From Fibrobacter sp. (GTDB lineage Bacteria > Fibrobacterota > Fibrobacteria > Fibrobacterales > Fibrobacteraceae), in contig JAKSIF010000014.1 of NCBI GenBank assembly GCA_024398965.1, positions 1 through 64,000 on the forward strand: a DNA stretch of 64,000 nucleotides, read 5' to 3'. This document shows positions 29,759-39,639 of this stretch, piece by piece. Each line of letters begins with the position of its first letter. The first letter of the stretch is position 1. A program made the position numbers and the translations under genes. The notes under the pieces are model-generated. The model worked only from the letters and a program-made list of their open reading frames with translations. It searched no databases and was not told the DNA's origin.

Positions 29759-30634
29759 TCAGAGCGGAGAACCTGGATTATAGCCAAGATTTTCAACAGC
29801 CTCGTCTATGGAGGGGGCTGCATCAAAAAGAAAACCTGCTAGAGCCTGTTCTGCAGTCACGGGCTTTCCCCCAATCCAACTCTTAAGTACAGCCAATTTT
29901 CTGCAGAGCCACCAGGGCAGAGGCACCATCAAGTGACGCATTCCCCTGGATTTAAGGATTGACTTTGCCATTTGAGCCATGGACAGCACATTTTTTCCAG
30001 CCAAGGCGTAGGTCTTGCCAACCGCATTTTCGGAGAGACCTGCGGCAGCGATTCCCTGCACAAGGTCAACGCTTTTTACAGGACGCTTCAAGCATTTGCC
30101 TCCGCCAGGAAGGAAATACACGGGAAACCGACATACATAACGGGCGAACATGTTGAATTCAATTCCACCCCCGTCGCCGATGACCAAGGTTGGGCGGACG
30201 ATTGTCCACTCCAAGCCTCTCTCGCCGGCAGCCTTAACATAACCTTCCCCCTTCAACTTGCTCTGGCCATATTCGGTCAGTGCCGGATAGGTAACGGAAA
30301 TGCTGGATACATAGAGGATACGGCGGACACCGGCACCTATGGCAGCCTCCACCACATTCTTTGTTCCTTGGGCATTAATCCTATCGAACATTCCCTGTCG
30401 GGTAGAAAGAAGGATGGCCGCCAGGTGATACACCACATCGACGCCTTCAAAGGCCTTTTTCATGGAATCGGGATCGGTCACGTCACCGTAGAATATTTCC
30501 ACATCACTTGGTAACGCGCTAGCCAGAGTATCGCCCGGGAGCGTCAGAACACGCACACACACTTCGTGTTTCAAAAGTTCCCGGCAGAGCGCCTTCCCTA
30601 CGACGCCTGCACCCCCAGTCACCAAAGCAAGCAT
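29759..30634 (-). CDS. NAD(P)-dependent epimerase/dehydratase (extended SDR)
   Basis: 291 residues with the Rossmann motif TGGAGVVGKALCRELL at the N-terminus, DVVYHLAAILL, and the catalytic Tyr-x-x-x-Lys in YGQSKLKGEGYV, typical of extended short-chain dehydrogenases acting on nucleotide sugars or related substrates. The substrate cannot be told from sequence. It lies 2 nt after dnaA on the same strand, so both are probably co-transcribed. Confidence 0.85.
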   Translation of the reverse strand: MLALVTGGAGVVGKALCRELLKHEVCVRVLTLPGDTLASALPSDVEIFYGDVTDPDSMKKAFEGVDVVYHLAAILLSTRQGMFDRINAQGTKNVVEAAIGAGVRRILYVSSISVTYPALTEYGQSKLKGEGYVKAAGERGLEWTIVRPTLVIGDGGGIEFNMFARYVCRFPVYFLPGGGKCLKRPVKSVDLVQGIAAAGLSENAVGKTYALAGKNVLSMAQMAKSILKSRGMRHLMVPLPWWLCRKLAVLKSWIGGKPVTAEQALAGFLFDAAPSIDEAVENLGYNPGSPL

Positions 30635-30636
30635 TG

Positions 30637-32118
30637 CTAGGCTTCCAACAAATACTGGATATCCTGAACCCTGCGAGCCAGGGTTTCATCCTTATCCAAG
30701 AGCTTTTCCAGGGACCGGATTGCGGCGATAACTGTGGCGTAGTCGCGACCAAAGAACACCCCGATATTCACCAGGGATTCTGATGTAAGCCTACGGCTCA
30801 AATACATAGACACCTTGCGAGGCAAGGAGGTTCCGGCATCCTGACGTTTGCTCCTCAGGGACACCAGGTCTGTACCAAATTCAAGGGCGACCGTTTCGGC
30901 AATACCCTTGATGGAAATTTCTGCACGGCTGGACGATTCGTTTGGAGCAACCAGACGTTTGACGGCATTCAGGTCAAGATTTTCGTTGCAGAAATGATTC
31001 ATGGCACCAAGCCAGTTCAACATGCCCTCGATAACGCGCACATTCTGGCGAGGAGGAATACTAAGGAACCTGCAGATTTCCTCACGATCCTTGTCAACAA
31101 AGGGAACGTTCGAAGATTTCTTCTGGAACAGTTGCAATCTTGTCTGCAGATCGGGTTCATCGATACCTACGGCAACGCAAGATTCAAGCGGAGCCAAAAG
31201 CTTGGAAGATATACTGGGAACTCCGCTCTTGCTGCTAGCGCTTTCGTACATGTCTTCCACACGGGTAAACTTGGACGGATGGCGGTCGCAGGAGATAACC
31301 ACCTGCTTGCCCATGGAACGAAGATGCCTTATGAGGATCGCAAGGCGTTCCTGTGTTGCAATCCCCTTCTCCAGAAGTTGCACATCGTCTAGCAGGAGAA
31401 TGTCGCACTTTTCGTACTTTTCCTGGAAGGCTTCTGCCAGTTCCCTGACATTACCCGACTTCAGCTTAAGGGCCTTGGCCACAGAGGTTGCATCACGCAG
31501 GAAATCGTACGCATGGCAGTAAACCACGTTGGCAGAAGGCTGTTTCTTCTGGATACAGCATGCGATAGACTGCAACAAGTGCGTTTTGCCGAGACCGGAC
31601 GCCCCGTAGACAAACAGCGGATTCAGGCCCGGATCGCCAGGATTTTCGGAAACAGATTTGCAGGCCTTGAATGCAGTAGAATTTGATTCGCCTTCCACAA
31701 AGTTTTCGAAGGTGTAGTTGGCATAAAGGCTAAGCTTTTTTCTAGCCTTGGGCTTGGACTGGGCTGCACGAACACGGGGCAATACAGGAGCCTTGGGAGC
31801 AGTCAGCTTACGCTCGGAAAGAGTCATCTCGGGAACTGCAGCCGTCGGGGCAATCTGGCGAATACGATAGTCAATAAACTCTGTACCGTAAACAGCAGAA
31901 AAAGCCTTACGGAAAATATCTCTATAATGGGTGTTGATCCAATTTTCCCGCAGTTCATCCGGCACAGTCAGCAAGGCATAGCCATCCTGTATTCCCTCGA
32001 AACCTACAGTTTCAAGAATGGTAGAACCCAAAAAATCATTACACTCTGCACGGAATCGCTCCAGCACGGACTGCCAGGGAGACTCTTCAAAATCCAATAA
32101 AGAAACAGTATTCGACAC
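30637..32118 (-). CDS. dnaA: Replication initiator DnaA with divergent DNA-binding domain
   Basis: About 493 residues. After the N-terminal domain and a linker rich in Lys/Arg/Ala comes the AAA+ core: Walker A FVYGASGLGKTHLL, Walker B DILLLDDVQLL, sensor I CDRHPSKF and sensor II NVRVIEGML. The C-terminal domain IV (PRKVSMYLSRRLTSESLVNI, FFGRDYATV) has changes at residues that contact the DnaA box in E. coli: Gln408 is Lys, His434 is Tyr, Thr435 is Ala, and the Arg399 position is Gln. No ATG is available. GTG at 32118 gives a normal-length N-terminus; other GTG/TTG options exist up to 32190. The neighbour is not dnaN. Confidence 0.85.
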   Translation of the reverse strand: MSNTVSLLDFEESPWQSVLERFRAECNDFLGSTILETVGFEGIQDGYALLTVPDELRENWINTHYRDIFRKAFSAVYGTEFIDYRIRQIAPTAAVPEMTLSERKLTAPKAPVLPRVRAAQSKPKARKKLSLYANYTFENFVEGESNSTAFKACKSVSENPGDPGLNPLFVYGASGLGKTHLLQSIACCIQKKQPSANVVYCHAYDFLRDATSVAKALKLKSGNVRELAEAFQEKYEKCDILLLDDVQLLEKGIATQERLAILIRHLRSMGKQVVISCDRHPSKFTRVEDMYESASSKSGVPSISSKLLAPLESCVAVGIDEPDLQTRLQLFQKKSSNVPFVDKDREEICRFLSIPPRQNVRVIEGMLNWLGAMNHFCNENLDLNAVKRLVAPNESSSRAEISIKGIAETVALEFGTDLVSLRSKRQDAGTSLPRKVSMYLSRRLTSESLVNIGVFFGRDYATVIAAIRSLEKLLDKDETLARRVQDIQYLLEA

Positions 32119-32190
32119 GGACAACCAATAGATGTACAAAAGATCTAAAAACCGTGAAAAAGTTAAGTAAAGGCGCACCCGATAGGGCAC

Positions 32191-32418
32191 CGTTCCTCAT
32201 CTTTTTTTTGCTATCGCCGAATTTCGTTAAAAAAGGGCAAAAAAATTTTATTCCCATTTTCTGTCCCCTACTTTACAACCTAATCACGGATTTAATCACG
32301 CAACAATCAAACCTGTTACCCTATATATTCCACAACTTATCAACGGAAAAATTTTGTTTCATGGGTTGACAAAAAAAAGGGACTTTTCAGCCCCCAAAAA
32401 CAAAACTTACAAAAAAAT
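32191..32418. other. AT-rich region upstream of dnaA (candidate origin or promoter region)
   Basis: About 230 bp without genes, with A/T tracts and only two weak DnaA-box-like sequences side by side (TATTCCACA and TTATCAACG, each two mismatches from TTATCCACA, around 32325-32345). A repeated TAATCACG lies at 32281-32302. It could hold the dnaA promoter, or an origin if this DnaA recognises a variant box. Confidence 0.35.
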
Positions 32419-37024: not shown

Positions 37025-39628
37025 CTAACCTCCAAATCGTTCGTCGTACAGATTTTTAATTTCTCTCATTCGAGAAGCAATTTCCTGATTATCGGGATCC
37101 TTCTGTGCCAGATCCTGATAGATATCAAGAGCCTTTTCGTACAAGCCCTGGTCAAAGTAAATTTCAGCCAAGGTACGGGTCTTCATGCTGTCGTCCAGAT
37201 CATTGTTGCCGCGATTCAAGGGCGCGTCAGGATTGTTGATCAGACCAGCGGAAATTTCATCGTCGGAATCCCCGGACATGAGGAAATCAACCCCGTTGTT
37301 TGCAGGCTTCGGTTCGGCCTCGAGGTCATCATCCATATCAAAGAGCCCCTTAAAGGCGCCGGACACCTCGTTTTCAAGAGAATTGAAATTCGGGGAAGTT
37401 TCAGCAGCACTTACTGCGGGAGCAGGTTCATTCTCGGCAGCAAGGTCATCTTCGCCGAACAGGCTGTCAAAGGACTTGTCCAAACTTGACTTTACACTGT
37501 CGTCAGCATTTTCGCCTTCAGCAACATCAGGCGTTGCAAAGGATTCTTCTACAATGGCGCCAGTAGCTTCCTGATCTGCAGCAGGAGCAGATTCATTCAT
37601 CTCAGGAAGATCAAGGTCGTCGTCGTCACCAAACATGGAGGCAAACGCACCGCCCATTTCCTTGGCAATGTCGGAACCGTTACTCTTCGGTTCTGCAGGA
37701 AGTTCCAATTCAGCTTCTGCCCGATCGACCTGTTCTGCCAAGGAGACGGAATCAACTGTTTCCTGTGCAGCAAGAGGCTTTTCTTCCGGCAATTCATCAT
37801 CATCACCGAAGAGGGAATCAAGAGCACTATCTACACTGAAAGTCTGACCAGATGTGGTAGGAGCTTCAGGAGCAGCAGGCTCTTCATCCAAGACAAAGTC
37901 CATTGCAGATGCAAGAGCCGGAGCTTCGGACTTATCATCCAAGGAGAAGCTGGAATCGGCGGACTTTTCGAACAAACTGGAAGAGCCTTCAATTTCAAAT
38001 GGAGCGTCATCAAGGGCAGGTTCTTCCTGGACAGCGTTGTCCATGGCCGGAAGATCCAGGTCCATATTGTCCAGAGAAAGTTCGTCGGAAACTTCGGCAG
38101 CAGGCTTTTCCGCAGGCAGTTCCTCGGGAAGTTCGTCTTCGCCAAAGATGGAGTCGAAGGCGTTGTCCACGGTGGTAGGCTTGTCTTCCACTGCAGGTGC
38201 AGGAGCTTCAAGTGCCGTTTCTTCTACGGCGGGAGCAGGGGCTGTAGATGGCAGTTCCTCGGGAAGTTCGTCTTCGCCAAAGATGGAGTCGAAGGCGTTG
38301 TCCACGGTGGTAGGCTTGTCTTCCACTGCAGGTGCAGGAGCTTCAAGTGCCGTTTCTTCTACGGCGGGAGCAGGGGCTGTAGATGGCAGTTCCTCGGGAA
38401 GTTCGTCTTCGCCAAAGATGGATTCAAAGGCATTGTCCACGGTCGTGGGCTTGTCTTCCACTGCAGGTGCAGATGCTTCGGGCATAACCTTTTCGGCAGA
38501 GGAGTCTGCGGCAAGGTCATCTTCCAGACCAAAGATGTCAGACAGAGCGGAGTTTACATCGTTACCGGAGATGTTCTCATCCACAGGGAATTCTTCGACA
38601 GGACCTTCGCTCTTATCAAAAGTAGAGATGACAGAATCAAGAGATGCGGCCAGGTCTTCGACCTGAGAATCATCTGCTGCGTCCCCATTGGGAAGCATGG
38701 CTGCAAGAGCTGCAAAAGGATCGTCTTCTACGGAGAATTCCGCAGCAGGAGCGTCCAGTTCTGCCTCGCCACCTTCGGCCGGGGCTTCAGCGACTTCCGC
38801 AGATGCAGAACTGAATACGGAACCCATAGAGGAAGATTCTTCCTGGGGATCGTCATCAAGTCCAGCAAAAAGACCCGTGCTGGCAGAGGACTTTTCAAAC
38901 AGGGAACTTCCTGATTCCTCTTCGGGCTGTTCCGTCGTGGGTTCAACCGTAGTCAAGCTGATATCGGAAAGATCTTCACTGGACTTTTCAAAGGGGTTGA
39001 GACCGCCTTCCGGTTCTTCTTCCACGTCGTCGGTTACACCGCCAAAGGCATCACCAAAGGCCTTCTCAAAGGAAGCCTCTTCAATAGGTTCTGCGGCAAC
39101 GGCTTCGGAAGAGCCTTCCAGTTCTTCGGACAGATTGAGATCAAGGGAGGAGTCGTCCATGTTGAACTGGCTATCGGCAAGTTCCGCACCAGCGGCAACT
39201 GCAGCAGCCTCAGCAGCGGGAGCAGTTTCTGCTTCCGGCATGGCCTCGTACTCTTCCTTCCAGAATTTGTTCAGGGGATCCATGTCATGGAACTGACGAT
39301 AGCAAACATTACGTTTGCCCTCATTGCCAAGAGCATCGTAGGCATCGCCCATAATCTTGTAGGCAGCCAGATTGAACGGATCATGAATAAGGGCATTTTC
39401 GCACTGGGTAACGCAGGTTTCGTGCTCACCCTTTTCAAACAGGATCTTGGCACGGACCAGCATGGCGGCCACGTCATTCGGATAGAGAGTCAAGCCTCCA
39501 TCTACCAGCTTGAGTGCCGAATCCAGGTCACCGGCTGCGCGTTCCAAATCGGCAAGCCAGGCAAAGACCATGGACTTGCCCTTCTTTTTGTTCACAGCTT
39601 TCTTGAGAGATTCCATTGTAACAGGCAT
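37025..39628 (-). CDS. TPR protein with long acidic, Ala/Pro/Glu-rich repetitive middle
   Basis: 867 residues. An N-terminal TPR region (about 15-130: FAWLADLERAAGDLDSALKL, NLAAYKIMGDAYDALGNEGK) is followed by about 600 residues of low-complexity acidic sequence with recurring short motifs such as NAFDSIFGEDELPEELP, LFEKS and SFDSLFGEDD. A C-terminal TPR pair closes it (KTRTLAEIYFDQGLYEKALD). It contains a perfect 135-bp tandem duplication. Start ATG 39628 has GAGG 5 nt upstream; the earlier GTG is less likely. It probably acts as a scaffold for pilus or polarity functions beside pilT (inference); no export signal. Confidence 0.8.
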   Translation of the reverse strand: MPVTMESLKKAVNKKKGKSMVFAWLADLERAAGDLDSALKLVDGGLTLYPNDVAAMLVRAKILFEKGEHETCVTQCENALIHDPFNLAAYKIMGDAYDALGNEGKRNVCYRQFHDMDPLNKFWKEEYEAMPEAETAPAAEAAAVAAGAELADSQFNMDDSSLDLNLSEELEGSSEAVAAEPIEEASFEKAFGDAFGGVTDDVEEEPEGGLNPFEKSSEDLSDISLTTVEPTTEQPEEESGSSLFEKSSASTGLFAGLDDDPQEESSSMGSVFSSASAEVAEAPAEGGEAELDAPAAEFSVEDDPFAALAAMLPNGDAADDSQVEDLAASLDSVISTFDKSEGPVEEFPVDENISGNDVNSALSDIFGLEDDLAADSSAEKVMPEASAPAVEDKPTTVDNAFESIFGEDELPEELPSTAPAPAVEETALEAPAPAVEDKPTTVDNAFDSIFGEDELPEELPSTAPAPAVEETALEAPAPAVEDKPTTVDNAFDSIFGEDELPEELPAEKPAAEVSDELSLDNMDLDLPAMDNAVQEEPALDDAPFEIEGSSSLFEKSADSSFSLDDKSEAPALASAMDFVLDEEPAAPEAPTTSGQTFSVDSALDSLFGDDDELPEEKPLAAQETVDSVSLAEQVDRAEAELELPAEPKSNGSDIAKEMGGAFASMFGDDDDLDLPEMNESAPAADQEATGAIVEESFATPDVAEGENADDSVKSSLDKSFDSLFGEDDLAAENEPAPAVSAAETSPNFNSLENEVSGAFKGLFDMDDDLEAEPKPANNGVDFLMSGDSDDEISAGLINNPDAPLNRGNNDLDDSMKTRTLAEIYFDQGLYEKALDIYQDLAQKDPDNQEIASRMREIKNLYDERFGG
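38116..38480. repeat. 135-bp tandem repeat in the TPR gene
   Basis: Units at 38116-38250 and 38251-38385 are identical over all 135 bp (45 codons). A third, diverged and partial unit follows from 38386. The repeat encodes alternating acidic and Pro/Ala-rich peptide (DELPEELP, AVEDKPTTVDNAF). Confidence 0.9.
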
Positions 39629-39639
39629 AAACACCTCAA

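Follow-up and report, generated by a model that had tools for sequence, protein, structure and literature searches.

The stretch of DNA analysed here, 64,000 nucleotides of a Fibrobacter contig (hereafter the window), carries on its reverse strand a gene for a DnaA-type protein (30637..32118) with altered DNA-recognition residues, and the question is whether it encodes the initiator of the organism or a second DnaA with a different task. Starting from a GTG codon at 32118 the product has 493 aa; an alternative in-frame GTG upstream at 32190 would give 517 aa. The ORF, Pfam, alignment and an AlphaFold model together assign domains I–IV to it: Pfam recognises domains I, III and IV (DnaA_N, Bac_DnaA and Bac_DnaA_C, all above cut-off, the architecture of the DnaA superfamily), the structure model, based on 40 orthologs, has a mean pLDDT of 85 and the layout of DnaA, and its top PDB matches are all DnaA structures. 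Since it scores 314.2 bits with TIGR00362, the DnaA equivalog model, below the curated cut-off of 343.9, we regard the protein as a divergent DnaA and refer to it as DnaA2. An NAD-dependent epimerase/dehydratase gene (29759..30634, reverse strand; assigned by Pfam and locus comparison) begins 2 bp downstream as a genome neighbour only; of the 11 genus loci compared, the window among them, 10 have it after dnaA2 (it was not seen in G088), as do G057 and G145. Elsewhere in the window, 37025-39634 (reverse strand) encodes an acidic protein whose start resembles TPR and which contains internal repeats that are nearly identical (VEDKPTTVDNAFDSIFGEDELPEELPSTAPAPAVEE).

An ordinary, full-length DnaA (DnaA1; 441 aa, recognition helix GKDHSTV) is encoded on another contig of the same genome (C5:74266-75588, forward strand). 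The window gene is therefore a paralog, and the reading of it as the organism's only DnaA, with a changed specificity, is ruled out. The initial annotation had weighed a variant box specificity against a paralog with another role and had named a second, normal DnaA elsewhere as the deciding observation; the paralog half of that proposal stands (deep relatives keep the ordinary copy beside dnaN and oriC), and the other role is a matter of probability. It was also right that dnaN is not adjacent: this gene sits on contig C28 and adjoins neither dnaA. The great majority of bacteria are reported to have a single copy of dnaA (PMC3080875). Full-length DnaAs come in pairs almost throughout Fibrobacterota: 165 of 168 genomes gave a domain IV match and nearly all good genomes hold at least two; by our reading of the table this is so in 86 of the 89 genomes with at least 90% completeness and at most 5% contamination, a count in which some extra matches may be other genes. 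Genome G143 (98% complete) has a single DnaA match, possibly through loss of DnaA2. Most genomes of two other genera in this family, g2 and g4 (G043, G045-G056), have two domain IV matches, but their DnaAs have diverged so far that neither closely matches a Fibrobacter copy. A gene of ~122 aa at G000:C19:43346-43459, near phage-like genes, matches half a DnaA domain IV and is possibly a prophage regulator, and the 7.7-kb contig G000:C80 carries a DnaC/IstB-like ATPase and a replication-initiator-like protein, from a mobile element or an assembly contaminant.

All window-type copies fall into a single clade (SH-aLRT 99), at the base of which stands the deepest lineage, G167. The species order is similar in the DnaA1 and DnaA2 parts of the tree, which was made by a quick method with long branches included; DnaA2 is thus an old paralog with an inheritance of its own, and the duplication probably preceded the radiation of the phylum. 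In G032 and G038 the gene order is parB-parA-rsmG-mnmG-mnmE-yidC-rnpA-dnaA1-dnaN, the neighbours of dnaA1 being what we take them to be from sequence and general knowledge, without a family search, and in G167 dnaA1 adjoins mnmG, rsmG and parA. In these genomes dnaA2 has unrelated neighbours and lacks the canonical oriC surroundings beside dnaN. As judged from sequence and ancestral synteny, DnaA1 is the ordinary oriC-type initiator. Both genes have moved away from the origin in the Fibrobacteraceae examined: in the single-contig genome G144, the parS sites and the GC-skew switch (skew sampled as 20-kb pieces) are at ~1.42 Mb, dnaA1 at 0.79 Mb and dnaA2 at 2.39 Mb. In several Fibrobacter genomes (G089, G099, G070, G101, G126 and G131), dnaA1 and dnaA2 are only ~39-61 kb apart on the same contig.

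The contacts of E. coli domain IV with DNA, reportedly those of Fujikawa 2003, are used here as given in later summarising papers. Alignment with E. coli DnaA (whose numbering is used throughout) confirmed the four substitutions that had drawn attention to the gene: R399Q and Q408K in the basic loop and helix (RQDAGTSLPRK, 30814..30846), and H434Y and T435A in the recognition helix GRDYATV (30730..30750), with a fifth change, H439A, just past the helix segment; R407, R432, D433 and T436 are retained (these and the motifs below are all on the reverse strand). Q399, K408, Y434 and A439 are fixed in the 38 Fibrobacter DnaA2 sequences, position 435 being Ala or Ser, so that of the base-contact set R399, D433, H434, T435 and H439 the genus DnaA2 retains D433 alone and lacks the set expected of an initiator. 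As Y434, Q399 and K408 occur in 38/38 orthologs, the substitutions are due neither to chance nor to sequencing error. Q408K by itself is unremarkable, because Aquifex DnaA also carries Lys there. Across the phylum, Y434 is present in nearly all aligned DnaA2 proteins (but not in G150 or G167; the count leaves out the highly divergent copy of G145). Changed recognition-helix residues (435, 438-439) accompany changed DnaA boxes in Thermotoga maritima (PMC7561715) and Epsilonproteobacteria (PMC5043019). The DnaAs of these organisms are similar to DnaA2 in their altered recognition helix, in which the T. maritima protein has further changes beyond these positions. Unlike DnaA2, to our knowledge, each is the only one in its host and its AAA+ interface is complete.

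Walker A (GASGLGKT, 31582..31605), Walker B (LLLDDVQ, 31378..31398) and the sensor residues are intact by alignment, as initially described; K178/T179, D235/D236 and the sensor 2 arginine R334 (NVRVIEG, 31024..31044) are invariant in the 38 Fibrobacter sequences, and the sensor 1 Asp in the 40-sequence DnaA2 alignment. What the initial annotation overlooked is the loss of the arginine finger, R281K, H439A, a ~17-aa insert, the phylum-wide distribution and a conserved upstream box. In box VII (ISSKLLAPLESC, 31177..31212) R281 is replaced by Lys and the arginine finger R285 by Pro, and the preceding segment (31213..31275) holds the insert, which the alignment places in Fibrobacter DnaA2 only. 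All 38 Fibrobacter sequences lack R285 (Pro in 33, His in 3, otherwise Gln or Tyr), R281 (mostly Lys) and K243 (Gly, Ser or Ala), and L290 is replaced by Val. The finger-side and ATP-side residues of DnaA1 are all canonical (34/34 sequences). With R285, R281 and K243 lost and the Walker and sensor residues invariant, the ATP side of the DnaA2 interface stands and its finger side is gone, and the Fibrobacter protein can probably still bind ATP. In E. coli, ATP-dependent assembly and the unwinding of oriC depend on R285, the arginine finger, and domain III contacts involve K243 as well as R281, the arginine of box VII (PMC5742627, PMC8213410). DnaA2 retains the finger in most genera outside Fibrobacter; on this distribution it was lost only later, on the stem of Fibrobacter, and apparently once more, independently, in G144.

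The canonical box TTATCCACA does not occur upstream of dnaA2, as had been noted, nor anywhere in the window or its contig, nor in any of the genus dnaA1 or dnaA2 upstream sets. Comparison across the genus revealed instead a conserved DnaA-type box, TTATCAACG (CGTTGATAA in the dnaA2 direction; 32337..32345, forward strand), and ~10-11 bp from it a half-box, ATTCCACAA (32327..32335, forward strand), of which the core only is conserved. GTTGATAA lies within 400 bp upstream of dnaA2 in 29/30 Fibrobacter loci, and CGTTGATAA or TGTTGATAA (TTATCAACR) is likewise kept in 29 of 30; upstream of dnaA1, TATCAAC with an inverted TGTKGATAG is found in 30/30 genus loci. Box-type elements number 71 before dnaA2 (16 expected) and 50 before dnaA1 (13 expected). 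In deep lineages such elements stand in tandem before dnaA2, 10-12 bp apart: close same-strand pairs number 18 over 32 genomes against 0.04 expected from shuffles, an expectation that flatters the motif because it was picked after viewing these sequences. A link of tandem 11-bp arrays with the presence of the finger was suggestive in the deep lineages and was set aside, as several finger-bearing family members have no array; likewise, a parallel between box changes in g11 and changes at DnaA2 positions 433/434 was dropped, with few lineages and mixed boxes.

The origin itself was located by the rsmG-parA-parB-peptidase-bactofilin operon, which rules out an origin next to the window gene: oriC in Fibrobacter is the intergenic region that follows the bactofilin gene, close to parS and to the point where the GC skew switches. 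In G043 and G053, the two genomes inspected from g2 and g4, the stretch after bactofilin is not oriC-like. The oriC regions of 31 genus genomes contain 99 TGTTGAH (the A6 class, TTWTCAACA) against 11.9 expected and 83 GTGRATA (the C6 class, TATYCAC) against 4.3 expected, for motifs likewise picked after looking at the sequences. Genome-wide, TTATCAACA exceeds a reversed-pattern control by 48 to 10 in the window's genome and by 46 to 15 in the deep lineage G032, with no enrichment in G163. A6 and C6 replace each other at homologous positions, as in G088 at the conserved dnaA2-upstream box and at an oriC box, and for this reason a relaxed sixth position (TTATCMACA) explains the boxes more simply than a separate class for each protein would. 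The same variant class is present in oriC and ahead of both dnaA1 and dnaA2, and because of this shared occurrence it cannot be assigned to DnaA2.

DnaA2 evolves fast, yet under purifying selection. Its dN/dS between close species is about 0.02-0.17, and in the three pairs scored for both copies it was 0.08 against 0.025 for DnaA1 (G099/G070), 0.10 against 0.008 (G101/G104) and 0.17 against 0.025 (G103/G136). Within the genus, fragments excluded, DnaA2 proteins are 48-74% identical to that of the window's genome, and DnaA1 proteins 84-94%.

Compared with known systems, DnaA2 shares with canonical DnaA (TIGR00362; E. coli, B. subtilis) the four domains, the AAA+ core with Walker A/B and sensors, and the helix-turn-helix of domain IV, but differs in its sub-equivalog score, in the absence of the finger, R281 and K243, in H434Y, T435A, R399Q and H439A, and in its coexistence with an ordinary DnaA. 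With Hda, the RIDA regulator, it has in common that it is a DnaA-related paralog and potentially a regulator of DnaA. Hda has no domain IV, and its arginine finger, which acts on DnaA-ATP, is intact. DnaA2 shows the reverse, a domain IV but no finger, and is therefore unlikely to work as Hda does; its score with the Hda model TIGR03420 is 56.7 bits (cut-off 194.8). DnaA paralogs as such are already known from Chlamydiae (Waddlia DnaA1 and DnaA3; PMC4989314), where more than one DnaA-like gene is likewise kept across the phylum; it should be noted that these belong to a different phylum and were compared with DnaA2 by gene number only. A phylum-wide DnaA pair with a finger-less member was not found in the searched, mainly open-access literature, and the sequence comparison covered Fibrobacterota.

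On these data, the probable task of DnaA2 is to limit or tune replication initiation, not to trigger it. More specifically, we favour, at a little below even confidence, a reading in which DnaA2, finger-less but able to bind ATP, uses the same boxes as DnaA1 and restrains, caps or dilutes the filaments of the latter. DnaA2 would bind ATP and DnaA-type boxes, the arginine finger of DnaA1 would engage its intact ATP side, and filament growth would halt there because DnaA2 has no finger to donate to the next subunit. In this way DnaA2 could end or dilute the filaments that DnaA1-ATP forms at oriC and at the two dnaA promoters, and would serve as an internal limiter or timer both of initiation and of the expression of dnaA. 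A genome search found no further protein of the Hda type with a Bac_DnaA domain in the window's genome, which leaves room for a regulator of this kind. The altered recognition residues may block such sharing of boxes. Finger loss by itself does not prove an inhibitory role, because the lethality of R285A DnaA in E. coli is suppressed by a modified oriC that R285A can still serve (PMC6727663), and a positive role of DnaA2 in a mixed complex is for the same reason conceivable. Nor would capping be the ancestral role of the family, given the persistence of the finger in most other genera. The proposal in its widest form, an asymmetrically stripped DnaA as end-cap or brake, inherited as a pair phylum-wide and acting via the shared shifted box TTATCMACA at oriC and both dnaA promoters, is rather doubtful.

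An unlikely but serious alternative places DnaA2 outside the orisome, as a dedicated transcription regulator with a DnaA fold and an altered DNA specificity, for which ATP only sets the shape. The four to five changed base-contact positions, mostly fixed in the genus, agree with it, as do the tandem arrays before dnaA2 in deep lineages, which resemble an autoregulatory operator, the genome-wide excess of TTATCAACA in the window's genome and the inclusion of DnaA paralogs in transcription-factor lists of Chlamydiae (PMC4989314); however, the same box class is kept in oriC and the dnaA1 promoter, and a plain repressor would need neither domain I nor the complete ATP site of the AAA+ module, both of which are kept. 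We consider it distinctly improbable that the two proteins are co-initiators in a mixed filament at oriC, DnaA1 reading C6 and DnaA2 reading A6: both classes exceed chance in oriC and both proteins are near-universal in the phylum, but the interchange of A6 and C6 at aligned positions weakens any clean division of box classes between them, and without a finger DnaA2 would be a poor filament builder. That DnaA2 is a decaying or neutral leftover is very unlikely, for its several-fold faster evolution and lost catalytic-interface residues are set against a dN/dS far below 1, matched genes without stop codons, invariant Walker and sensor residues and a conserved upstream box. Almost no weight can be given to DnaA2 as initiator of a secondary chromosome or plasmid, since, even though DnaA genes occur elsewhere on records filed as plasmids, the single chromosome of G144 carries both genes and has just one parS cluster and one switch of GC skew, and DnaA2 is near-universal over the whole phylum.

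Restraint of DnaA1 by DnaA2 thus remains the reading that we prefer. DnaA starts chromosome copying, and in the gut phylum Fibrobacterota a near-universal DnaA pair, whose Fibrobacter member is without the filament-driving residues, constitutes a natural experiment on the arginine finger and the recognition helix. It suggests a route of initiation control where the examined genome has no Hda-like gene, and makes work on oriC and DnaA boxes directly testable in Fibrobacter, an important fibre degrader. If the proposal is true, the DnaA pair would be a bacterial counterpart to the specialised ATPase and non-ATPase subunits of the eukaryotic ORC.
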